The notes beneath the pieces were generated by a model that saw only the letters and a program-made list of their open reading frames with translations, was not told the DNA's origin and did no database searches. Below are positions 15,736 through 34,192 of a DNA stretch of 34,192 nucleotides, piece by piece. Made by a program: the position numbers and the translations under genes. The stretch's first letter is position 1. Every line of letters begins with the position of its first letter. This DNA comes from an uncultured Gammaproteobacteria bacterium (GTDB taxonomy: Bacteria; Pseudomonadota; Gammaproteobacteria; SZUA-229), in contig CAJXZZ010000028.1 of assembly GCA_913065105.1 (NCBI GenBank), positions 1 through 34,192 on the forward strand. Direction: 5' to 3'.

Positions 15736-16590
15736 TTACTCGTCAAGACTGATAGTACTTAGCAGTATAACTTCAATTTCTTCTATGATTTCTTCCTGGC
15801 GTAAAATATTGCCCTGGCGATGCAGTTCTTCAGATTGTTCATCCAGGTGTTGAACTGCGCCTTCAAGATGCGCTACGCGCTGATGGCTTTCTGCCATAAG
15901 AGAGGTGTACAGAACCTCATATAACACAACGAACAGATAGTGATAACTCAGATCAAGTAAAAATTTTTTAGGTTCAATATTCAACTCTGGAGCATGCGGT
16001 TGTTTTGGCTGATGGTTGAGCAGGTTTTGAAAAGGAGGCAGCAGCTGCAGATTAATAAGCTGATGTTCATCATCATGATAAAGCACATATAAATTCATTG
16101 TGCCATAGTGTTCCTGTATAGAAGCCAGTTGATTAACAATCTGATTGAGGACATCTCCAACTTCTTCCGCGACACTGGCGCCATCGATAAATATTATTGC
16201 CTGTTCATCATTCTCCAGAAGCGTTTCTAGTTTATGACCTACAGTGATGAGACGCAGTTTATCCATGGTATGTGTTATTTGCATGGTTTCAAAGTGGCGT
16301 AACAAAGCATGATTAAAATCACCGCAAAACCCACGTTCGGCACCGATCAAAAGATACACATTAATATCATCGTCAACAGGCGTGTCTGTATTTTCTGTTA
16401 GCGTCTCGGGATAGAAGCTGAGGAAATCTGCAGCGACTGTTTCAATGTGTTTGACCACGGCATGTTGTACATCAAGAAAATCGCTAATCTTGCGCGTTTC
16501 CATATAAGACAGGTTTTTCATCGCATTCATGATGTTGCGAATTTCATCGAGACTGCGACCATGTTTTTCAATGTCGCGGCGGCGGGTCAT
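15736..16590 (-). CDS. atpG: N-ATPase gamma subunit
   Basis: Central stalk protein of 284 residues that turns inside the alpha/beta hexamer. It has the family's N-terminal coiled-coil helix (residues about 1-55, with [10 protein letters not shown] in place of the usual start), the [11 protein letters not shown] segment near residue 83 (standard form S-D-R-G-L-C-G-G-x-N) and the C-terminal helix with [19 protein letters not shown]. Its ATG overlaps the atpA stop by four bases (ATGA). It is the last gene of the operon, in the position typical of N-ATPases. Sequence is diverged from housekeeping gamma, as usual for this class. Confidence 0.9.
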
Positions 16591-18083
16591 GCTTGATTTT
16601 TCTCTTCACGACAGCTCAAGCAACTGGCGATCAGCTCTGACCACTTTTCTCTGGGGCTATCAAGTGTCAGGCCAGTGTGCCGTGTATGCTGGACCAGGAT
16701 ATCGAATTGTTTCGCTACGTCTTCGGGATCTACGCCGTCAAAACAACCGTCATTGAAGGCCACTAACCAGGCCAGCTGAACGGTTACTGGCAGGGGCATC
16801 AATCGGTCCTGCTTAAAAATTTCTCGTAACACCCGGCCACGTTTAATGGTTGCTTCCATAGACGCTTCAAGGCGTGCACCGAAACGTGTGAAAACTTCCA
16901 GTTCAAGAAACTGCAGATAGTCTAGTTTTAAACGCCCGGCTTCTTCTTTGATGCGACGATGTTGTGCATCACCGCCGATACGGGAGACAGAGCGGGCTAT
17001 ATCTATCGCCGGGCGAAAACCGCTGACAAAAAGTGTGTGGTCGAGATAAATCTGGCCATCGGTAATGGAGATCAGGTTAGTGGGAATATAAGCGGCTATT
17101 TCTCCCTGGTTTGTTTCGACAATAGGCAGTGCGGTCATACTGCCACCGCCATGTGCAGCATTAAGACAGGTGGCACGTTCAAGTAATCTGGCATGAACGG
17201 AAAAAATATCACCGGGAAATGCTTCCCGTCCGGGCGGTCGGCGTAACAGTAATGAAAGTTCGCGGTAGGTTTTGGCGTGTGTCGTCAGGTCATCATAAAC
17301 CACCAAAGTATCATGCCCCTGCTGCATCCAGAATTCGGCGATGGCACAGCCGGCGAAAGGGGCTAAATGTTGCAGGCCGGGTAGTCCACTGGCTTCGGCG
17401 ACCACCACCGTGGTGTAGTCCAGCGCATTGTAATCACGCAGCGTATTAATAATATTCACCACCTTGCTGCGCTTCTGACCTATCAGCACATAGACACAGC
17501 GAACATTCTGACCCTGCTGGTTAATCACCGTATCTAGCGCAATCGAACTGCGGCCAAGGCCTTCATCACCGATAAGTAACTGACGCTGCCCCTTACCGAT
17601 GGGGATTAATGTATCGATAATTTTAATGCCGGTGTAGATGGGCTTACGCACAAAATCACGCGCCATGATGACAGGTGATTTCGCCTCCAGGCGCTGCCAT
17701 GGCAGGTGGGGTGGTAAGGATTGATCATCAAGAGGGATGCCCTGCGGATCAATCACCCTGCCTAGCAGGCTATCACCGACTGGCACACTTAACAGCTTAC
17801 CGGTAAGACAGACCGTGGTACCAGCGGTTAACTGGTTTGTCTGGTGCAGGAGCACGGCACCGACCTGGTTCTCCGTCAGGTCAAACACCATGGCCCGACT
17901 GCCATCCTCAAAAGCCAGTATGTCATCGATTGCCGCCATGGGCAGGCCGCTGATCCAGGTAATGCCATCACCGATTGAAATCACTTTGCCCTGTTCTTTG
18001 ATGCGTATTGATGGACGATAGTCTTTTAGCCAGTCGGCCTGTCGGTTAATTAACTCGGCTGTTTTGAGATCAGTGTTCAACAT
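16587..18083 (-). CDS. atpA: N-ATPase alpha subunit with altered P-loop
   Basis: Non-catalytic nucleotide-binding subunit of 498 residues. The family regions are all there: [11 protein letters not shown] near the start, [14 protein letters not shown], the YDDL segment, [12 protein letters not shown] and the SVSRIGG arginine finger. Unusually, the P-loop reads GDEGLGRSS where alpha subunits normally have GDRQTGKT: the nucleotide-binding Lys is Arg (codon at 17550-17552). That may weaken or change nucleotide binding at the non-catalytic sites. The start is ATG 18083 after GGAGTGTG, overlapping atpF by 14 bases; a longer frame from 18116 lies within atpF. Confidence 0.92.
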
Positions 18084-18825
18084 GGGCACACTCCATGAAG
18101 CCCTGCAATTCATCACGCACGTTCAATTGCAGCACCCAGGCACCGATGGTGATGTTCAACCCGGCCAGTAATTCGGCATCCTGTTCATAGTGCACAGGGA
18201 CTGTCAAACCGATTACTCTGGATAAAGTGTCTTCTAGCCGATGGCGTTTATCGTCTGCCAGCGGGTAAGCACTGGTGACCAGGATACGTTCAGGTGACTC
18301 GCCCCATTTATTAGCGAGCACACTGATTTGATCAGCAGACATCACGCTCAGGCCATCTAACAATAAATCAAATAAACGGTTTTCGAGTTCCGGCCCCGCT
18401 GCCTCGGCAAGCAGTCGGGAGGCAAATTCTGCACCCTGTTGCAATGCGCGCTGTTCAATTTCCCGTATGACCTGTTTATCTCGTCGTGAACTGGCGACAC
18501 GGTTTTTTTCTTCTTCCTGAGCAAGTTCTGTCTTCAGGTTTTCCAGTTGTTGAAGTCGGTTTTCTTCAATTTCATGCAGTAATTTATCCATGGCTTTCTG
18601 ACGTTCCTGCTCCCAGTCGGCCAGACGATGTTCATACTGTTCTTTTAAGGCATCGGCATCGACGTGATGTTGCTCAGCTTCTGCCAGCTGGTTTTCAATA
18701 GCGGCACGACGTCGCGATATGACATCCAGTACCGGCTGATATAAAAACCGTTTCAGGATCCAGACCAGAACCAGAAAATTGAAAATTTCTAACAGAAAGG
18801 TGGACCAGTTAAGTTCCAATGTCAA
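18070..18825 (-). CDS. atpF: N-ATPase b subunit with fused delta-like C-terminus
   Basis: Peripheral stalk protein of 251 residues, much longer than the usual b subunit (about 156). A single membrane helix covers about residues 8-24, followed by a long charged coiled coil to about 145. Residues 180-245 resemble the C-terminal part of delta/OSCP ([11 protein letters not shown], then [15 protein letters not shown] near 218-232). There is no separate delta gene, in keeping with the N-ATPase class, so this protein probably does the work of both b and delta. It lies between atpE and atpA, overlapping the latter. Confidence 0.88.
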
Positions 18826-18868
18826 AACTCCTTTTGTTGATTTTACTTACCATAATTATTGCAGCTGG

Positions 18869-19826
<958 letters not shown>

Positions 19827-19830
19827 TGCG

Positions 19831-20103
19831 TTATTCCTTAATAATGTAATAAACGTTAAACATGCCGATGAACACCCCAAGCAGGATCAGACTAATCGTC
19901 CAGCGAATCGAATAACCGGATGCCATAGCATCAAACCAGCGGCCTAAATAAGCACCGCCCACCACTGGCAGCACAAACATCAATCCCAGTGTACCGATAT
20001 AAATCGTTTGTCCGATCAGGGTGGGCCGGTCCTGTTCCGCCTGCTTCATGCGTCGGGCCTGTTGCTCGACCTGTTTTCGAAGTTGCTGTTGCTGATTCAT
20101 CAT
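19831..20103 (-). CDS. atpQ: N-ATPase AtpQ (AtpI-like) membrane protein
   Basis: Small inner-membrane protein of 90 residues: a Gln-rich basic N-terminus (1-25), two membrane helices (about 28-48 and 65-86) and a G-x-x-L-G-R-W-F-D segment between them. It matches the ATPase gene 1/AtpI-like family, thought to help c-ring assembly or magnesium supply. It starts one base after the atpC stop at one of two tandem ATGs (20103 or 20100), both within range of GAAGGG. Confidence 0.85.
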   Translation of the reverse strand: MMNQQQQLRKQVEQQARRMKQAEQDRPTLIGQTIYIGTLGLMFVLPVVGGAYLGRWFDAMASGYSIRWTISLILLGVFIGMFNVYYIIKE

Positions 20104-20104
20104 A

Positions 20105-21912
<1,808 letters not shown>

Positions 21913-23836: not shown

Positions 23837-25084
23837 TCAAATTGTGGTTTTGGTTTCTGGCGTGGCGACTGTTTGTGTTTTCTTACGTGACCACGGTGTT
23901 ACCTGTAAACGTTCCTGATCATCATCGACACCGATCTCGCTGTTGCTCAGGTAACAGCCCGGATCTTCGGCCCAGAAATTACCACTTAACGACCAGGCGC
24001 GTGTACGCGAGTTGCCGCCGCAGATATTGATGTACTGACAGCTTGCACAACGGCCTTCGACGGGGCGCGATTTAAGTTTGAGACCGGCCATCAAGGGATC
24101 AGACGTGTCCATCCATATGTCGGAGAATTTACCTTCTTTGACATTGCCGATGGTGTAATCCCACCACATGGTATCCGGATGTACGTTACCGATATTATCG
24201 ATATTTGAAATGTTTACCCCTGAAGAATTACCGCCCCAGTTATTTAACATGGCTTCGATCTGTTCGGCGTACTCGGGAAGATTTTCTCTTGCCCATAACA
24301 ACAGGTAAACCCCATCGGCATCGTTGTTGCCAGTTACAAACTCACGCTGTTTGCCAGTTAAGGCATCATTCCAGCAAGTCTGGAATAACAGGTTCATGGC
24401 TTCACGGGTCATCTGATGATGCAGGTCATCACCCCGGTTTTTATTGCCGCGACCGGCATAATTTAAATGTGACAGATAGAATTTGTCGATATCTTCATCG
24501 TCCATCAATTGCAGCAAAGCGGGTAAGTCCTGTTTGTTATCCTGGGTTAGGGTAAAACGCAGACCGACTTTAATGCCGGCATCGCGGCACAGGCGTATAC
24601 CGCGCAAGGCTTCATCATAGGAACCCTGTTTACGGCGGAATTTATCGTGGGTCTCGCGTGTGCCATCAATGCTGACACCGACATAGTTGTAACCAACATC
24701 GACGATGTCTTTGATGTTGTCTTCTGTGATCAACGTGCCGTTTGAAGACAGGCCAACATAAAAACCCATGTCTTTGGCATGATGTGATATCTCGAAGATA
24801 TCCGGACGCATCAACGGTTCTCCACCTGACAGAATAAGTACCGGTACACCAAAATCTTTCAGGTCATCCATCACACTAAATACTTTATCTGTATCTAATT
24901 CGCCGGGAAAATCTTTGTCAGCAGAGGTGGCGTAACAATGTTTGCAGGTTAAATTGCAACGTCGTATAAGATTCCAGATGACCACAGGACCGGTCGGTTT
25001 GCGCACTGCAGAACCAATCGGTCGTGATGGTTTAACCCGGGGGTCTGCTTTTAGTGCATGCATGTATTGGCTTAATCGAAACAT
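23837..25084 (-). CDS. nirJ: Heme d1 biosynthesis radical SAM protein NirJ
   Basis: Cytoplasmic radical SAM enzyme of 415 residues that changes two propionate side chains of didecarboxysiroheme on the way to heme d1. The radical SAM cluster motif is Cys43, Cys47, Cys50 (RRCNLTCKHCYA). The SGGEPLMRPD motif near residue 90 follows. A C-terminal SPASM-like region has CASCQYINICGG and a further GCYL cysteine for a second cluster. It lies 18 bases after the nirG-nirH fusion gene. PqqE-like relatives and AhbC/AhbD are similar, but the surrounding nir genes make NirJ the best call. Confidence 0.93.
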   Translation of the reverse strand: MFRLSQYMHALKADPRVKPSRPIGSAVRKPTGPVVIWNLIRRCNLTCKHCYATSADKDFPGELDTDKVFSVMDDLKDFGVPVLILSGGEPLMRPDIFEISHHAKDMGFYVGLSSNGTLITEDNIKDIVDVGYNYVGVSIDGTRETHDKFRRKQGSYDEALRGIRLCRDAGIKVGLRFTLTQDNKQDLPALLQLMDDEDIDKFYLSHLNYAGRGNKNRGDDLHHQMTREAMNLLFQTCWNDALTGKQREFVTGNNDADGVYLLLWARENLPEYAEQIEAMLNNWGGNSSGVNISNIDNIGNVHPDTMWWDYTIGNVKEGKFSDIWMDTSDPLMAGLKLKSRPVEGRCASCQYINICGGNSRTRAWSLSGNFWAEDPGCYLSNSEIGVDDDQERLQVTPWSRKKTQTVATPETKTTI

Positions 25085-25102
25085 AGTAGTTATTCTAATT
25101 GA

Positions 25103-26107
25103 TTATGCGGCTAGTCGCAGTCCGGTTTTTTTCAGGATGGCAGAACTGAACAGCGTGTCGTGCGCCTTGCAGTCTTTGCCTAATAGCATTTCTATCTGTT
25201 TTACTTTTTCATTCACTTCATCTTTGTTATGACCGTGCACCATAGCGAACAGATTATAACGCCACATGGGCAGGTGTCGTGGTCGCTGATAACAGTGGCT
25301 GACAAAATCCAGCTGGCCGATAATATTTCCCAATTTTATAAGCTGGTCATCCTCAACATCCCACACGGTCATGCCGTTAGCCGTCAGGCCGAGTTTATAG
25401 TGATTGGGTACCGCACCGATGCGACGAATAATACCGCTAGATAACATCCGGGTTAATCGTTGTATAACATCTTGCTGTGTTGTGCCCATATTATTTGCAA
25501 CAGTCTGATAGGGCGAGCGTTCGATAGCAAAACCGCTCTGTGTGACACTGATCAGTTTTCTGTCTATATCATCAAGCTTGATGTCACCCACCGGGGGCTC
25601 TGTTTTATTGGGTACAGGAACCGTGGTGTGTTTGCCATCGGCGGATAGATGCAACCACAGACCAATATAAAATTCTTCTTGTTTAGGAAAGTTATATACC
25701 GTGAGACCGGTGGTTTTTTCTATAGAAGATAGCACCTGGAGAAGTTCGGCAGGGGTTTCTGTCGCTAGCACAAACCACATATTGAGCTCATGATCACGCC
25801 GGTAATTGTGTGCGACTTCGGGGTAGACGTTAACCAGCTCGGTGACGATTTCATATCTGTCTTCCGGCACAGAAATGGCTGCCAGTGTTAAACCGCCGCC
25901 AAGGCGCGCGGCATCATACAGTGGTCCAAAACGGGTAAGTAGTTTTTGATCTTTTAAGCGCTTAACGGTCTCGATTAATTCATCTTCAGAACAGTTAAGC
26001 TGTGTCGCGATGGACTCAAAGGGATGTTCCTGCAGAGGAAAACCGCCCTGAAAGTTATTGATAAAATCGCGTTCCAGCTGTGATAGTTGCATGTCTGAGT
26101 GTTGCAT
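25103..26107 (-). CDS. nirGH: Fused NirG-NirH siroheme decarboxylase
   Basis: Cytoplasmic protein of 334 residues made of two AsnC/Lrp-like units joined by a Pro-rich linker (about 161-172). The first (about 5-155) has the NirG-like LTRFGPLYDAARLGG and NYRRDHELNMW. The second (about 175-330) has the NirH-like RRIGAVPNHYKLG and YQRPRHLPMWRYNL. The complex removes two acetate carboxyls from siroheme to give 12,18-didecarboxysiroheme. In Pseudomonas the four units D, L, G and H are separate; where fusion occurs it is commonly called NirDL. Here D and L are separate and G-H fused, judged by motifs and by the F-D-L-GH-J order. Start ATG 26107 (a second Met is five codons on). Confidence 0.85.
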   Translation of the reverse strand: MQHSDMQLSQLERDFINNFQGGFPLQEHPFESIATQLNCSEDELIETVKRLKDQKLLTRFGPLYDAARLGGGLTLAAISVPEDRYEIVTELVNVYPEVAHNYRRDHELNMWFVLATETPAELLQVLSSIEKTTGLTVYNFPKQEEFYIGLWLHLSADGKHTTVPVPNKTEPPVGDIKLDDIDRKLISVTQSGFAIERSPYQTVANNMGTTQQDVIQRLTRMLSSGIIRRIGAVPNHYKLGLTANGMTVWDVEDDQLIKLGNIIGQLDFVSHCYQRPRHLPMWRYNLFAMVHGHNKDEVNEKVKQIEMLLGKDCKAHDTLFSSAILKKTGLRLAA

Positions 26108-26115
26108 AAAATCGT

Positions 26116-26676
26116 TTATCTGACCAGATGAAGTTTCGCAGTTTTGTTGTTTACTGCTGCGGTATCTTTTTGGGTATAGCTGGCGCCGCGTTGTTTGAAA
26201 CGTCGGGTACTAAATAGAATAGTATGTTTAATATTCTGCAAGCCGCATTGCTCAACGATGTCTTCAACTTTCTGTGTCACTTCATCGCGGTTACTGCCAT
26301 GCACCATGGTAAACAGATTGTATGACCAGTCGGGTAAGCAGCGGGGACGGCGATAACTGAGAGTGACGCAGTCATACTTGCCAATACACATGCCCATTTC
26401 TTCGACTTTGTCATCCGGTACGTCCCATACCACCATGCCGTTGGCGGTATAACCTAGTTCTTTGTGGCGTACGACGACACCGTAACGTTTGATGGCGCCG
26501 TTATCCATCAGCTGCTGCAGGCGTGAGATCACATCCTGCTCTGTGGTGCCCAGATTTTTTGCGATCTCGGCATAAGGGCGACTGGCGATCGGCAGGCCGT
26601 GTTCCACAGCTTTGATCAGGGCTCTATCTTCGGTGCTTATCTGCATCACCTGTTTGTTTAATTCTGCTGTGCTCAT
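26116..26676 (-). CDS. nirL: Siroheme decarboxylase subunit NirL
   Basis: Protein of 186 residues with one AsnC-like winged helix (about 15-70) and a C-terminal ferredoxin-like effector fold. KRYGVVVRHKELGYTANGMV (about 63-82) is the NirL-type motif; its Arg and His are candidates for substrate binding. YRRPRCLPDWSYNLFTMVHG follows near 108-127. The ATG overlaps the nirD stop by four bases. The basic C-terminal tail (about 155-186) is longer than the family core. It could be swapped with NirH by annotation tools since the two are close paralogues. Confidence 0.85.
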   Translation of the reverse strand: MSTAELNKQVMQISTEDRALIKAVEHGLPIASRPYAEIAKNLGTTEQDVISRLQQLMDNGAIKRYGVVVRHKELGYTANGMVVWDVPDDKVEEMGMCIGKYDCVTLSYRRPRCLPDWSYNLFTMVHGSNRDEVTQKVEDIVEQCGLQNIKHTILFSTRRFKQRGASYTQKDTAAVNNKTAKLHLVR

Positions 26677-27152
26677 TTCTGTGCGCTCGTTTTCAGTGTA
26701 AAACCAAGATCAATAAAGTAGTCTTCCAGCATAGGCAGTGACATCAGCGGGTACTCGGCATGCTGTTCGATCTCATGCAGTACGATGTCCAGATGTTCTT
26801 CACTTGATGCGGTGACGACGAACCACAAGTTGTATTCGTGTTCGCGTTCGTAGTTATGATTAACTTCAGGGAATGCGCTGACAATACGCGCCACGCACTC
26901 CAGATCCTGCTCTGCTACGGCCATCGCGGCCAGGGTACTAACACCAATTCTGTTGGGTCGAAATACCGGACCAACACGACTGATAACACCACGATCCTGT
27001 AATGACTGTATCGACTGCAATACTTCTTCTTCACTGACGTTCAGCTGTTTTGCCATGTCGGCATAGGGGGTTGCCGATAACGACATGTCGCGTTGAAAGT
27101 CATTGAGCAGATGCTGTTCCAGTGGTGTGTAATCGTTGATTGAATTAGTCAT
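26673..27152 (-). CDS. nirD: Siroheme decarboxylase subunit NirD
   Basis: AsnC-like protein of 159 residues. The winged helix covers about 10-60. SRVGPVFRPNRIGVSTLAAM (about 58-77) is the NirD-type signature, and NHNYEREHEYNLWFVVT (about 98-114) holds the conserved His and Arg residues of the decarboxylase active site. It would pair with NirL. It lies 26 bases after nirF, as in the order known from Pseudomonas. Confidence 0.85.
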   Translation of the reverse strand: MTNSINDYTPLEQHLLNDFQRDMSLSATPYADMAKQLNVSEEEVLQSIQSLQDRGVISRVGPVFRPNRIGVSTLAAMAVAEQDLECVARIVSAFPEVNHNYEREHEYNLWFVVTASSEEHLDIVLHEIEQHAEYPLMSLPMLEDYFIDLGFTLKTSAQK

Positions 27153-27178
27153 AATATTTTATCTACTCTGAAAGCAAA

Positions 27179-28342
27179 TTATAAACCTGTGCGGTGCGCG
27201 CGTGCGGTAAAGAAGATACCACTGGGTTTTTTAGCTGCAAAACTTGTTAGCTGTTCGAAGGTTTCAGTATCAAATACAGCAATGCGGTCTTCATCACGGA
27301 CAGATGCCCAGACCTGTCCACCACGTGGTTCGAATTCCATGTGTAACACACCTTTGCCGGGTGTTAGTGTTTTTATGATTTTTAATGACTGGGTATCGAT
27401 AACCTGCAAAGTATCATTATTTGGTACCGCGAAGTTCACCCAGATGTTACGACCATCAGGGCGGGCCATGACAAATACGGGTTGACCATGTACCTTGATG
27501 CGTCCTGCTTCAGACCAGTCCAGCGTGTTGATAACCAGTACTTCGTGGTGACCGACTGCGGGGACAAAAGCATAGTTGCCGGCGATCGCCCAGCCTTCAA
27601 GGTGGGGCATCTTATAAACCGGCAGTTTCTGTTCGCCTTTGCCATAACCATCAAGAATACGTTTAACGCCGGCATCGAGGTTCCATAGATCGAGCATAGC
27701 CATGCCGTCTTCACCAAAGAGACCGGCAATATAATAGCGGCCATCAGGGGTGATGAGTGCATCGTAGGGATTGAGGCCAATATCTTTGAATTTGGTAATT
27801 TTTGGTTTGCTGGTATCAGACATATCAGCCACCCAGATCTCACCGGCATCCCAAAGACTGAAAACAAATTTCTGTCCCGGTGCATCGACCAGTCCGATGA
27901 CTTTCGATTGTTGATCCTGACTGCCGTAAGTTGCCGGGATATCGGCCACCAGTTCTAATGTTTCTGCATCAAAAACTTTTACCCCACCAGGGGTGTAATT
28001 AGATACCGCAACCAGACGACCGTCCTGTGAGATAGCGCCACCGATACTGTTACCTGATTGCATGACGCGTTTAACCAGTTTTTTATTGATGATATCAATC
28101 TTTGACAGACCGCCATCACGACCGAAGATGTAGGCATATTGCTCATCGCGCGAATAGACTGCAGAGGCGTGAGATAGATCACCGAGACCTTCGATACGAC
28201 CCAGACTGGAGTTGGTGCTGGTTTCTATAACCTGTACGCTACCGTCAGCACGTTCGATAACAATGCCAAGATCACCGGTACCACGCGCCGTCGAATCTAG
28301 CGACCAAAGCAATGCCACAGAAAGTAAAATCGATCGGATCAT
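27179..28342 (-). CDS. nirF: Heme d1 biosynthesis protein NirF
   Basis: Periplasmic protein of 387 residues with an N-terminal signal (about 1-19) and an eight-bladed beta-propeller related to the d1 domain of nitrite reductase NirS and to NirN. Repeated blade segments such as TPDGRYYIAGLFGEDG and ARPDGRNIWVNFA are visible. It acts late in heme d1 formation. Some homologues are lipoproteins; no lipobox Cys is present in this signal region, so this one is probably soluble. NirN and NirS are ruled out by the absence of a heme c motif (no CXXCH). Its ATG overlaps the nirC stop by four bases. Confidence 0.9.
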   Translation of the reverse strand: MIRSILLSVALLWSLDSTARGTGDLGIVIERADGSVQVIETSTNSSLGRIEGLGDLSHASAVYSRDEQYAYIFGRDGGLSKIDIINKKLVKRVMQSGNSIGGAISQDGRLVAVSNYTPGGVKVFDAETLELVADIPATYGSQDQQSKVIGLVDAPGQKFVFSLWDAGEIWVADMSDTSKPKITKFKDIGLNPYDALITPDGRYYIAGLFGEDGMAMLDLWNLDAGVKRILDGYGKGEQKLPVYKMPHLEGWAIAGNYAFVPAVGHHEVLVINTLDWSEAGRIKVHGQPVFVMARPDGRNIWVNFAVPNNDTLQVIDTQSLKIIKTLTPGKGVLHMEFEPRGGQVWASVRDEDRIAVFDTETFEQLTSFAAKKPSGIFFTARAHRTGL

Positions 28343-28695
28343 TCTACTTTATCCCCGGCTTTCTTATTTTGGGCCAGTTCTGTTTGTTGTACGGTTCCAT
28401 TTTGTAGCTGCTCGGTTATCCAGACGGCATCACCGTGGCTGAGCATGGTTTTCCAGGGTGGCATAGCGGTATTTGGACGGCCTTCTAAAATCGTGGTCAC
28501 CAGATAGTCTGTTGGTTTGGCTGACAGTGTCTCAGGCAGTAAAGCAGGGCCCAGGCCACCTTTTAAGGTCATGCCATGACACGATCCGCAGTCGTGTTTG
28601 ATGAAATACAGCAGCTCATTTTGGCGGGCAGCAGCAAGTTCGGCGACAGCTGTTTGTGTTGCTAGAAGACTAAATATGAATAACGTTTTTTTCAT
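28339..28695 (-). CDS. nirC: Cytochrome c55x-type protein NirC
   Basis: Small periplasmic cytochrome of 118 residues: signal peptide about 1-19 (MKKTLFIFSLLATQTAVA), heme motif CGSCH at about 36-40 and axial Met in NTAMPPW near 78. NirC is thought to act in heme d1 maturation or as electron donor to NirS. ATG 28695 is chosen since it begins the signal peptide; it overlaps the end of nirE by 26 bases. A longer frame from 28737 has no better ribosome site. The C-terminal tail is polar and probably disordered. Confidence 0.85.
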   Translation of the reverse strand: MKKTLFIFSLLATQTAVAELAAARQNELLYFIKHDCGSCHGMTLKGGLGPALLPETLSAKPTDYLVTTILEGRPNTAMPPWKTMLSHGDAVWITEQLQNGTVQQTELAQNKKAGDKVE

Positions 28696-29461
28696 AATAA
28701 GCATCTTCGAGAGAGCACTGAAACCAGTCAAGTTCATCGGCTAACGATACCACTTTTCCGATGATGATCATCACTGGCGCTTGCAATTTTTTCTGACGAA
28801 TTGCATCGTCCAGTTGATCTAGTGTTGTTATCACCCGTTGCTGAGACAGCGTTGTACCGTTTTGAATAGCGGCGGCAGGTGTTGAAGCAGGCAGTCCTGC
28901 ATCGATTAATGAGTGTACGGCCAGCGGCAGGTTAGATAGCCCCATATAAATGACCAGGGTTGAATCTGGATCAGCGATAGATTGCCAGTTAAGATCCAGA
29001 GGTTCGTTATCATTAAAATGTCCGGTGATAAACTGTACTCTACGGCTCAAACCGCGATGTGTTAATGGGATACCGCTGTAGGAGCTGCAGCCAGATGCCG
29101 CGGTAATGCCGGGTACAACTTCGAAAGCGATATCGTGTTTTTTTAGTGCCAGGACTTCTTCTCCGCCACGACCGAACATGTAAGGGTCACCGCCTTTAAG
29201 GCGTACGATCTTATTCCCGGCATTTGCCAGGCTAACAATGATTTCGTTTATCTGTTCCTGCGGCACACAATGTTTACCGACTTCTTTACCGACAGAAATA
29301 CGGCTGGTATCCGTAGGGATAAGATTGAGAATATCGGCAGATACCAGTCGGTCATAAACCACCACGTCTGCCTGCTGGAGTAAACGGACTGCTTTAACAG
29401 TCATCAGGTCGGCGTCGCCTGGGCCAGCGCCAACCAGTGATACAAAGCCTTTATTACTCAT
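28670..29461 (-). CDS. nirE: Uroporphyrinogen-III C-methyltransferase NirE
   Basis: Cytoplasmic SAM-dependent enzyme of 263 residues that methylates uroporphyrinogen III at C2 and C7 to give precorrin-2, the first committed step to siroheme and heme d1. Family motifs are clear: VGAGPGDADLMTVKA at the start, VVYDRLVS, GGDPYMFGRGGEE (about 92-104) and PGITAASGCSSYSGIPLTHR (about 117-136). It has no CysG-type N-terminal domain. As first gene of the heme d1 operon it is called NirE rather than CobA. FNR-type boxes lie upstream. Confidence 0.92.
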   Translation of the reverse strand: MSNKGFVSLVGAGPGDADLMTVKAVRLLQQADVVVYDRLVSADILNLIPTDTSRISVGKEVGKHCVPQEQINEIIVSLANAGNKIVRLKGGDPYMFGRGGEEVLALKKHDIAFEVVPGITAASGCSSYSGIPLTHRGLSRRVQFITGHFNDNEPLDLNWQSIADPDSTLVIYMGLSNLPLAVHSLIDAGLPASTPAAAIQNGTTLSQQRVITTLDQLDDAIRQKKLQAPVMIIIGKVVSLADELDWFQCSLEDAYYEKNVIHI

Positions 29462-31305: not shown

Positions 31306-31535
31306 AAACATAATTGCGCAGCCCTAAGTAGAGCTTTAACAGCTAAAGCAGGTCAGCTGGTGTTTACTACCAAACCAATAGAAATTTAAAATTATAAACA
31401 ACTCAATGAGTTTTAGAATGTAACGAGAGTCTGCTGCAGATGGCGGGTTCAACTTTTTTCTTTGAACTTCGGCTGCCAATGATAAGGCGACTTTAAACGG
31501 TTTTTTCTGACTGTAAAATTCTGATCAAAAGCAGA
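31306..31535. other. Non-coding gap next to the cassette
   Basis: No convincing gene. GTTCAA 31447-31452 and TTGAAC 31461-31466 form a perfect six-pair stem around a T-rich loop. AGTCTGCT near 31430 is the inverse of AGCAGAC at 31530-31536, so about 100 bases are bounded by short inverted repeats, the right one touching the attC end. A worn cassette or insertion-site remnant is possible. Confidence 0.3.
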
Positions 31536-31598
31536 CGTTAACGATTTGGGTAAGGCGCGCGACGCTTTTTCGCGTCGCACTTGACCCGCTTGTTAGGC
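31536..31598 (-). other. attC: Integron attC recombination site
   Basis: Read on the minus strand, the 63-base site starts GCCTAAC (R-double-prime, 31598-31592), then GGGTCAAG (L-double-prime), a seven-pair stem GCGACGC/GCGTCGC (31559-31565 and 31572-31578), CTTACCC (L-prime), a five-base spacer and GTTAACG (R-prime). GGGTCAAG and CTTACCC pair fully except for one extra base, the extrahelical base typical of attC that sets strand choice by IntI. The site starts 44 bases after the stop of the minus-strand gene, as expected in a gene cassette. Confidence 0.8.
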
Positions 31599-32812
31599 GA
31601 TTCTAGATGGACGTAATTTTTAAAATGAACTGATATCAACATTTAGATAATTACCCAATTAACAAGCTTATCCTTGTTTGCCGAATATTTTCCACCTTCA
31701 TAATATAATGTATTTGCATACTGTTGGATAAGTGCTTGTTGTTTTTGACTAAGGCCAGTCCACCATTGCTCAGAGAAGAAAGTGTTTTCACAATTAACAA
31801 AACAGTATTGAATAAAAATATCACATTTCTCAACATCAGGTAGATTATCAAAACTATCGATTACAGTATTGGCGTCTTTTGCGCCTTTTAACCATACAAA
31901 TACGATTGCACCTCCATCATCAGTATCAACAACTGAATGCGAGAGCATATCTGCGTCTAGACTTAGGTCCCACATGTCAATTAGTTTATTACCAAGAAAA
32001 TCGAACTCGCATTGAAAAACACTCGAGCTTACGACATCTAGCCTACCTTTAAAAAAATAGCATTTGCTTTCGAATGCATCATAGTTATCCTGGGCGATGG
32101 CTGCTTCAAATTTGTTTCTTATATTGCTCATCTCATCTAGAGATTTATTTTGTCCTGCAATACTTTTAATACATGAATTTTGCGTGCTTATCTGCCGATC
32201 TAAATTTAAACCGCGATCAAGGCATGTACGTTGAAACTCAAAGGATTCTATTAGTGCTTTTTTTCTATAATATTCATTACAAATATTTCGAAATGCATGT
32301 AAAACACAATGTTCATGTTCACCAGAAAAACCACCTTGTTCTATTGGGTCAAATAAGGTTGAATCATGGTATGAGCAAAAGCCGGGGAAAACTGAAGCTT
32401 TTCTCCAGCCAATTTCAGCTACATTGACTCCACCATCAGTTGAATTTGCTTCAAAATGCATTACATGATTAGTTGTATTTATTATGCGTTCTAAAGGCCC
32501 TTTTCTCTGGATAGTGTGTGAGTCAATAACTTTTCCTCTGCATACCTCTGGTGATGCTGATGGGTGCATACAACCACGTTTTTTCCAAAAAATCTTTCCC
32601 TGAAGATTCTGAATCTTTCCAATCGAGTAGGGTTTTTCTTGCTCCCTTAACATGTGACATTTTTTATACTTTTTCCCAGAGCCACACCAGCATGGTTCAA
32701 AGTGCTTTCTTTCTTTAACCGCATTTGAAACGAATGGGTCGTTGTCATCAACATAGGTTACTTTAAAGGGCTCTGAGGGTAACTTTATCATTCGTTAATT
32801 TTATGCGCCTAA
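31542..32812 (-). mobile_element. Probable integron gene cassette (1271 bases)
   Basis: The minus-strand gene at 32791 is preceded by GTTAGGC (32813-32807), with 15 bases to its ATG, and followed by attC. In a circular cassette the 5-prime end TTAGGC would join the G at 31542 to make the R-prime half; GTTAGGC is the exact reverse complement of the attC R-double-prime GCCTAAC. That match of the two ends is the hallmark of a cassette. No integrase gene or attI is visible in the window, so it may be a single cassette at a secondary site or part of an array out of view. Confidence 0.7.
31643..32791 (-). CDS. SEC-C motif protein with HNH-like zinc region, cassette-borne
   Basis: The 382-residue product starts with a SEC-C zinc motif (CWCGSGKKYKKCH, residues 34-46). 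A second Cys/His region follows: Cys74, His76, Cys84, then IDSHTIQRKGPL (89-100) and FPGFCSYHDSTLFDPIE (135-151). This C..H / C / SHTI / FC.YHD.LF pattern recalls HNH-like zinc folds in SEC-C proteins, but I cannot confirm a nuclease. The rest (about 160-382) is not recognised; it includes a Trp-rich part near 345. No signal peptide or membrane helix. It is the only gene of the cassette and is AT-rich relative to its left neighbours. Cassette genes often code for phage defence or stress functions; a defence role is a hypothesis. No Shine-Dalgarno is seen before ATG 32791. Confidence 0.75.
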   Translation of the reverse strand: MIKLPSEPFKVTYVDDNDPFVSNAVKERKHFEPCWCGSGKKYKKCHMLREQEKPYSIGKIQNLQGKIFWKKRGCMHPSASPEVCRGKVIDSHTIQRKGPLERIINTTNHVMHFEANSTDGGVNVAEIGWRKASVFPGFCSYHDSTLFDPIEQGGFSGEHEHCVLHAFRNICNEYYRKKALIESFEFQRTCLDRGLNLDRQISTQNSCIKSIAGQNKSLDEMSNIRNKFEAAIAQDNYDAFESKCYFFKGRLDVVSSSVFQCEFDFLGNKLIDMWDLSLDADMLSHSVVDTDDGGAIVFVWLKGAKDANTVIDSFDNLPDVEKCDIFIQYCFVNCENTFFSEQWWTGLSQKQQALIQQYANTLYYEGGKYSANKDKLVNWVII

Positions 32813-32920
32813 CAGTTAAATATACAGCGCCGCAAAACTCCTGATTTCAGGTAGATAGTCGGAAGCTTGGCTAACAGAGATATACAGTTCCGTATAACTC
32901 CAGTATATAGCGAGTTATAC
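32807..32920. repeat. Two direct attC-like half repeats upstream of the cassette
   Basis: A 35-base segment beginning GCCTAACAG at 32807 recurs as a 33-base segment beginning GGCTAACAG at 32869. They share TATACAG, CCG and AACTCC in the same order. GTATAACTC 32892-32900 also pairs with GAGTTATAC 32912-32920. The ends can be matched as a 114-base attC (GTATAAC at the right on the minus strand, GTTAGGC at the left, with complementary TATATAC/GTATATT arms), but pairing is poor inside. It may be a worn attC pair. Confidence 0.4.
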
Positions 32921-33000
32921 AGCCAATAATAGCGATAAGCAATGATGCTTTTGATCTAATAAGTACCAATACAAGGGATGTATAGGCTCAAATAAATATT

Positions 33001-33027
33001 TGTAAAAGCCCGCTTTAGGTGGCGGAC
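33001..33027 (-). terminator. Terminator of the csrA-like gene
   Basis: On the minus strand GTCCGC (33027-33022) pairs with GCGGGC (33013-33008) with one G-T pair, an eight-base loop, then TTTTAC. It begins 16 bases after the gene's stop codon. Confidence 0.55.
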
Positions 33028-33042
33028 ATAAAAAAGAATCTG

Positions 33043-33225
33043 CTATCCATAGGGTGGCGCATAGTAGTCTGGCAGACTTTCATAATTTTCCTCGCGGTCA
33101 ACCTTTACTTCTTCAGGCGCATATATGCCTATCTTTGCATGATTGTCTTGAATGTCCATTACGGTTATTTCAATGCGATCATCTAAAATAATTGTTTCGC
33201 CTACTTTCTGAGTCAGTACTATCAT
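33043..33225 (-). CDS. csrA: CsrA/RsmA-family RNA-binding protein
   Basis: Small post-transcriptional regulator of 60 residues binding GGA motifs in messenger leaders. The family pattern is kept: LTQKVGETI at the start (Leu4; the usual Arg6 is Gln), the central beta strands with KIGIYAPEEV, and VDREENY with Arg44, the key RNA contact. The C-terminal tail (SLPDYYAPPYG) differs from the helical tail of housekeeping CsrA. It is a single gene with its own terminator beside the cassette and is probably an accessory copy, as found on mobile elements; the main csrA is expected elsewhere. Confidence 0.88.
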   Translation of the reverse strand: MIVLTQKVGETIILDDRIEITVMDIQDNHAKIGIYAPEEVKVDREENYESLPDYYAPPYG

Positions 33226-33978
33226 TTCGCATCTTTAATTGTTGAGTGTTAATAGAACATAAGCAAAACATATGCCAAAAAATAATTTCATTGATACCTT
33301 TTAAGTAAAGGTGTAGATCAAAGCTCTTAAAAGCGATTCGTATCGGAGTTTCAGTGGATTTTAACGATTGGTTACTATTGTTGATTTTTGTGCCATCTGT
33401 TTGAACATATGCAATGGGCTGTTAATAAAAGCGTCTGATTTCAGTCATAAACCGTTATTAAAATGACATATATTTTAATTTTCAGAATTAATATTCAGAA
33501 AGGGCGAATGGGTGTTATAGGTCGACAACGCCTTATTAGCTTAGTATCTCGACCGCGAATATGGGGCCAATCGCGGACGTTAACTTATATTCTATAAAAT
33601 CATCCCATACGAGTAATAACCCTTCTCCAAATTTGTCTCCTACTATTTTTTCCTGGATAAAAAAATGGCGAAACAACAGGCTCCGAAGTGATGAGTATTT
33701 GTTCATGCATTCACATTTATCTCATAGGAGAGATGAGAGCGACAGACGTCTATTTAATAGCCTTTTAGATTATTTAAACTACCATTATTCTTATCGATCT
33801 TGCACATTTTAGATATCTCAAAATGCGATAACCGATACCGATACAGATATAGAAGGAACTTTCTCACTTATCGTCGAGGAATAGTGCAAATAGTCACCAT
33901 TCCTTAACAAATAAATTCAGGGAAGGTAGCTACTCCAATCAATTACAATAGTGGCAATAATGAATACGGTAATGTTCA
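33226..33978. other. AT-rich gap without a convincing gene
   Basis: No supported gene is seen in these 750 bases. One frame, 33561-33812 on the plus strand, lacks a ribosome site and recognisable features. GGAATAGTG 33878-33886 faces CACCATTCC 33895-33903 with one mismatch, a possible operator or hairpin before the last gene. Promoters for csrA (leftward) and the last gene (rightward) should be here but could not be fixed. Confidence 0.4.
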
Positions 33979-34192
33979 ATGAGAAGCTTTAAGAAGGAAC
34001 TAATAGAGCGGGCTAGAAAGGGTGACGTTAGAGCTGGAACTGCTTTATTAGAACAGTTCGTAGACACGGTGCTTGCAGGCGAAGAAATAGACGGGATCGT
34101 ACAGCAATACATTGCACATTGTTTACGCGACATAGTAAACGGTGAAGATACACAGATAGCCCTAAACATTAATGAACCAGTAGTAGGGCCAG
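33979..34192 (+). CDS. Hypothetical protein, cut by the window end
   Basis: An open frame of 71 codons from ATG 33979 runs off the window. The visible part is helical and charged (RSFKKELIERARKGDVRAG at the start, then IVQQYIAHCLRDIVNGEDTQIALNI). It resembles small helical proteins I recall from plasmids and genomic islands that start with a similar K-E-L-I-x-x-A-x-x-G-D run followed by Y-x-x-x-C-L-R-D-x-x-x-G; the link is from memory. No function can be given. ATG 33972 in another frame stops after a few codons. Confidence 0.55.
   Translation, partial: MRSFKKELIERARKGDVRAGTALLEQFVDTVLAGEEIDGIVQQYIAHCLRDIVNGEDTQIALNINEPVVGP

Follow-up and report, generated by a model that had tools for sequence, protein, structure and literature searches.

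The window (the whole analysed stretch of 34,192 nucleotides, which is contig C28 of the 3.06-Mb draft genome G000) carries an element that, as judged by its sequence, is almost certainly a mobile integron gene cassette. It sits alone behind a promoter-like pair and an attI-like site that has no integrase gene of its own. The explanation that we favour overall, and consider likely, is that the cassette integrated at an integrase-free promoter-attI unit, and that its gene likely serves as an accessory defence gene. The features concerned, all on the minus strand, are:

31536–31598, minus: attC site; R'' GCCTAAC at 31598–31592, R' GTTAACG at 31542–31536, cut after G31542
31542–32812, minus: whole gene cassette, 1271 bp, from the crossover G32813/T32812 to the attC R' cut at G31542
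31643–32791, minus: cassette gene, SEC-C protein of a prophage/plasmid accessory family (ORF, Pfam, alignment)
32807–32813, minus: junction core GTTAGGC between attI and cassette; complements the R'' box of the attC exactly
32814–32928, minus: attI-like site without integrase; stretches 76–98% identical in five congeneric species
32914–32942, minus: promoter-like pair directed toward the cassette; TTGCTT (32942–32937), 17 nt, TATAAC (32919–32914)
33043–33225, minus: csrA-like gene on the attI side (NCBIfam CsrA, E 2e-17, below the model's curated cut-off)

Limits of the gene cassette

The attC site, whose true orientation is minus, was evaluated using two covariance models. The first (R1), made from 10 attC sites of the host genome including the site itself, returns it as the sole match in the window at 80.2 bits (E 6e-19). 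To avoid circularity, the window attC and its near-identical copies were excluded from the second (R3), for which 22 further attC sites were used; it scores the site at 63.2 bits (E 7e-13), again as the only match in 34 kb. Across 162 kb of other loci, R3 gave one match, located at the expected attC position beside another attI copy. The folding energy (z -1.7) is weak evidence alone, and what decides for an attC here is the alignment model. A home-made hairpin scan proved too loose, and attC sites were mapped with the covariance models. The initial annotation had placed an attC at these positions, which both models bear out; its boxes and sequence are as described, but three extrahelical bases, all on one arm, are present instead of the single one reported. 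The intI genes and further attC sites that it suggested looking for beyond the window do occur in the host: two integron integrases pass the TIGR02249 cut-off, R3 detects attC sites on some 15 contigs, about 36 in all, and attC copies 97–98% identical to that of the window lie at C27:30038 and C76:1250.

At the other end, GTTAGGC at 32813–32807 is, as had been noted, the exact complement of the attC end. The window thus holds an attC with R'' and R' boxes and a hairpin, together with a start core complementary to R'', and the proposed 1271-base cassette is supported with both ends exact and a single gene inside (382 residues). No empty site was seen among 10 congeners compared by neighbouring-gene synteny, in which the flanks could not be aligned; the junction predicted for a cassette-less site is ...TTTAACTG joined directly to TTAACGTCTGC... 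We also considered whether the cassette belongs to an array cut by the assembly, and rejected this because 31 kb of ordinary genes follow on the attC side, while the attI side has csrA and no attC.

Just past the last attC, the window reads GTTAACGTCTGCTTT (31528–31542, minus), compared with GTTAATGTCCACTTT at G000:C76:1306–1320 (plus). Since GTTARYGTCYRCTTT has only these two matches in the host genome, the two downstream junctions may have a common origin.

The probable attI site and its putative promoter

Exactly at the crossover, the cassette meets a unit of ~130 bp (32814–32942) composed of the promoter-like pair and the attI site. The earlier description, right about the cassette, had overlooked this integrase-free unit at its other end. 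When congeneric genomes were searched with 32814–34192 as the query, nearly all matches began at 32814, the first base outside the G of the cassette core, and in five congeneric species the conserved stretches stop at exactly this base. The conserved stretch ends in ..CTGTATATTTAACT, followed mostly by GTTRNNY and then by DNA that differs in each genome. Of 54 family genomes, 16 contain the element according to a sequence model (R2). The presence of several copies per genome, at different places, would also suit an unrelated MITE- or REP-like repeat whose 115-bp element happens to end at the cassette, a coincidence that we regard as very improbable: nearly every good copy ends ..TTTAACT before GTTRNNY and different DNA, and the element is found adjacent to intI and with attC downstream.

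The adjacency to intI is clearest on G005:C201, where the gene directly beside the element encodes an intact integron integrase (463 residues; TIGR02249, 413.8 bits) and is transcribed away from it. On G032:C31 the element lies beside a broken integrase, intI is likewise broken on G025:C15, and integrase remnants flank the element on G032:C1, G025:C50 and G025:C20. This layout, seen in G005, G032 and G025, is that of an attI. In the G005 integrase (L106, 5826–7217), the IntI domain is preceded by an N-terminal extension of about 150 residues, and integrases of similar length occur in G044, G017, G030, G023, G039 and others.

On element-bearing loci, R3 places attC downstream of the element and on the same strand. 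The first core is the exact complement (7/7) of the R'' box of a downstream attC at five loci (the window, L138, L141, L146 and L107; by contig, the window, G032:C31, G025:C50, G038:C93 and G006:C120). All five cores differ, and the chance of all five being correct by permutation is 1/120; at L108, L110 and L139, a search for such a pairing found none. Because relatives carry the element beside an integron integrase, and because of the exact pairing at five loci, we propose that the stretch 32814–32928 is very probably an orphan attI, with a GTT-core crossover that receives varying downstream cassettes. Off-target insertion at an attG-type genomic site, with no attI involved, is a documented route for cassettes (cited in PMC12901181 and PMC12444791). 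At this locus it is improbable in the extreme, given that the 115 bp upstream of the cassette are conserved from species to species and, in relatives, lie directly next to intI.

A separate observation concerns L110 (G006:C206, 1323–3286), where the first cassette gene at the attI copy encodes a protein-kinase fragment resembling the MADS kinase MAD6 (E 2e-12) and is followed by another uncharacterised gene; as judged by this similarity, it is perhaps a second defence-like cassette at such an attI.

Most of the attI-like site is spanned by an imperfect tandem repeat (32869–32901 and 32807–32841), each copy of which ends in a GTT core (GTTAGCC and GTTAGGC; 32807–32901, minus strand). Shorter versions of this repeat occur at G014:C173 and G016:C192. 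The promoter-like pair is a weak consensus match, below detection by a generic scanner. Similar hexamers with the same 17-nt spacing are present in eight integrase-free copies (TTGCTT, TTGCTA or close variants upstream, then TATAAC, facing the cassette), and the stretch that the integrase-free copies share runs from the -35 hexamer to the crossover and then stops.

Integrases and the origin of the locus

No integron integrase adjoins the element in the window, on the 220-kb contig G012:C5, in G016, G014 or G038, on G044:C224 or on G032:C56; a different integrase, itself interrupted, lies about 8 kb from the last of these. Integrase-free copies with both a cassette and attC are those of the window, G038:C93, G012:C5 and G006:C120. 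In the window, intI is absent between the attI-like site and the contig end, 1.4 kb past the attI side, and the arrangement of a complete integron, intI next to attI, is thus not found there. The stretches read of the overlapping contigs C103 and C128, joined to the window as inferred from shared end sequence only, also contain no integrase. Positions 33570–34192 are repeated at 95% on C128:1–625, and C103 begins with exactly the final 127 bases of the window; the window ends at an assembly branch point inside an uncharacterised gene (MRSFKKELIERARKG...). An integrase of the matching type is absent from the draft host assembly G000 and from G014, G016, G012 and G038, assemblies that are partly incomplete. 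The two integrases of G000 show 46–48% identity to the G005 enzyme, and the attI regions belonging to them have nothing in common with the window element. In G044, contig C9 encodes an intact integrase of the matching type (81% identity), and a separate copy of the element, on C224, has no integrase beside it.

The attC, the exact cassette ends, the identity of the attI through its relatives and the lack of an adjacent or matching integrase in the assembly can be read directly from the sequences. We propose that a cassette of the host's own attC type would have been recombined by an integron integrase into a stand-alone chromosomal attI, which has its own promoter and no integrase gene; that this promoter would drive the cassette gene; and that the integrase either acted in trans or was lost later. 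Two readings compete on this last point, and both accept the orphan attI itself.

According to one, to which we give about an even chance, the locus is the relic of a once-complete integron in which intI and the upstream DNA decayed, leaving the promoter, the attI and the first cassette, inactive now. The decay stages described above, from the intact integrase of G005:C201 through broken genes to remnants, are consistent with such a course, and integrase loss with cassettes kept is common in Xanthomonas (PMC12444791). However, the integrase-free copies have a common and different upstream promoter, TTGCTW-N17-TATAAC, with no remnant of intI, and conservation that extends from the -35 hexamer to the crossover and then stops is as for a selected unit.

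According to the other, which we advance only tentatively, promoter-attI units are dispersed and served in trans by a distant integron integrase, with one expressed cassette each. The coexistence in G044 of an intact matching integrase and an integrase-free copy points this way, as do the cassette attC, which is of the host's current type, and the ability of IntI1 to act at non-classical sites (PMC12901181). The lack of a matching integrase in the five, partly incomplete assemblies listed above argues against it, and cassette exchange was not seen in the available genomes.

The cassette protein

SEC-C (PF02810, E 6e-9) is the sole significant Pfam domain of the 382-residue product, in agreement with the SEC-C motif annotated earlier, and the zinc motif CxC..S...C[HC] is present. 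The protein comprises an optional SEC-C, a domain with conserved Cys and His residues and a C-terminal domain. Since SEC-C is missing in some members, the family core is the remainder of the protein. Members without SEC-C were observed in the viral contigs L234, L239, L242, L245 and L251–L258. In the family alignment, C74, H92, C139, H142, D143, E151, R168 and N336 are invariant and C84 is near-invariant; from their spacing, C74, C84, C139 and H142 are plausible zinc ligands.

The Cys/His region had been called HNH-like. Its Cys and His residues are indeed family-invariant, but the HNH label is unsupported: no match to an HNH or His-Me finger was obtained with Pfam, PDB sequences or Foldseek, and the confident AlphaFold (AF2) model (pLDDT 88, pTM 0.85) has no Foldseek match at E ≤ 0.001, either in the PDB or among viral models. 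The protein may still be a divergent metal-dependent nuclease. Full-length and domain profiles compared with PDB sequences retrieved SecA zinc tails or chance matches only.

The gene is AT-richer than its surroundings (36.5% versus 44% G+C). A close homologue is present in one of the 192 other genomes searched, with 66% identity; it belongs to another bacterial family and lies elsewhere in the genome, with no recognisable attC. Between the two genes, pN is 0.21 and pS is saturated, values by which the cassette gene is under constraint. A scan of genome contigs gave mainly matches to the SEC-C stretch only.

Genomic context and the defence question

Plasmid-borne homologues were found in alpha- and gammaproteobacteria, Lactococcus and Enterococcus. 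Further homologues are present in E. coli (92 of 5426 genomes) and at 52 loci in viral contigs, a few of the latter being SEC-C-only matches. Those of E. coli lie in P2-like prophages, between gene D and ogr, or in an integrase-bearing island; others lie at prophage ends after umuDC. At individual loci, the neighbours include an Abi gene with an AAA-ATPase/helicase pair resembling Gabija, AbiH and an ABC-three-component system, and several homologues lie in ordinary surroundings with no defence neighbour.

Based on this company, the cassette gene is on balance a probable candidate for an accessory gene of mobile elements that provides defence on its own. The optional SEC-C zinc motif would be a binding module and the conserved Cys/His and C-terminal domains the effector, which could be a nuclease, although we hold this to be less than an even prospect. 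A lesser but real possibility is that the protein has an accessory role in housekeeping or metal handling and is unrelated to defence, as SEC-C is found in many unrelated proteins and some homologues have no defence neighbour; its patchy presence, its carriage by prophages and plasmids and the defence genes beside it speak against such a role.

The search of defence profiles that the initial annotation had recommended (PADLOC 2023) gave no full-length match, E2 and PDC-S12 matching the SEC-C stretch only. Identity with PDC-S12 was rejected on that account, and the prophage-encoded Salmonella defence gene GiPD474 was rejected because it has an ATPase domain. The open papers contained nothing relevant linking SEC-C with phage defence or integrons.

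Elsewhere in the window we observed a heme d1 type cluster (23837–29461) with a NirJ radical SAM protein, a fused AhbA/AhbB-like siroheme decarboxylase, a siroheme methyltransferase and a NosZ-like beta-propeller. Genes for ATP synthase alpha and beta subunits (16587–21903) also score high on alternate F1F0 ATPase models.

Comparison with known systems

Like a CALIN (IntegronFinder, PMC9024848), the locus has a cassette with attC and no adjacent integrase, but it contains one attC in 34 kb, whereas at least two are usually required, and it retains a promoter and attI that a CALIN need not have. Insertions at attG, as cited in PMC12901181 and PMC12444791, likewise place a cassette outside an integron array, at a degenerate genomic site rather than at a conserved attI-like one. 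In the Delta-attI cassettes of class 1 and 2 integrons (PMC12901181), attI is also separated from intI, but there a truncated attI replaces attC at the cassette 3' end, whereas here attI is upstream and the attC is normal. SEC-C or 'YecA family' proteins of P2-like prophages are homologous over the whole length at about 27–30% identity, as phage accessory genes with no attC found by R3.

Biological significance

Vibrio integrons are established carriers of phage-defence cassettes, and there the position of a cassette in the array limits its expression; cassettes deep in chromosomal integrons are believed to be largely silent, and how those for defence come to be expressed is an open question (PMC12409362). 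The cassettes of sedentary chromosomal integrons that carry phage-defence genes (Darracq 2025 and Getz 2025, as reviewed in PMC12409362) resemble the present one, which is likewise chromosomal, single-gene and a defence candidate. Unlike those, the window cassette is not part of an array but stands alone and first behind a promoter, and the silent-array problem would therefore not apply to it.

Members of the protein family range from Enterobacteria to plasmids of Lactococcus. Neither the databases nor the open papers searched describe a function for it, and no relative of its fold is known, which makes it a concrete candidate for a new defence protein encoded by a single gene. That the bacterial family maintains integrase-separated promoter-attI landing pads, served in trans, which would draw single cassettes (some for defence) out of silent arrays and allow their expression at fixed genomic positions, is a less likely extension of these results. 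More simply, a cassette alone behind a promoter at an integrase-free attI may represent one possible route to the expression of a defence cassette.
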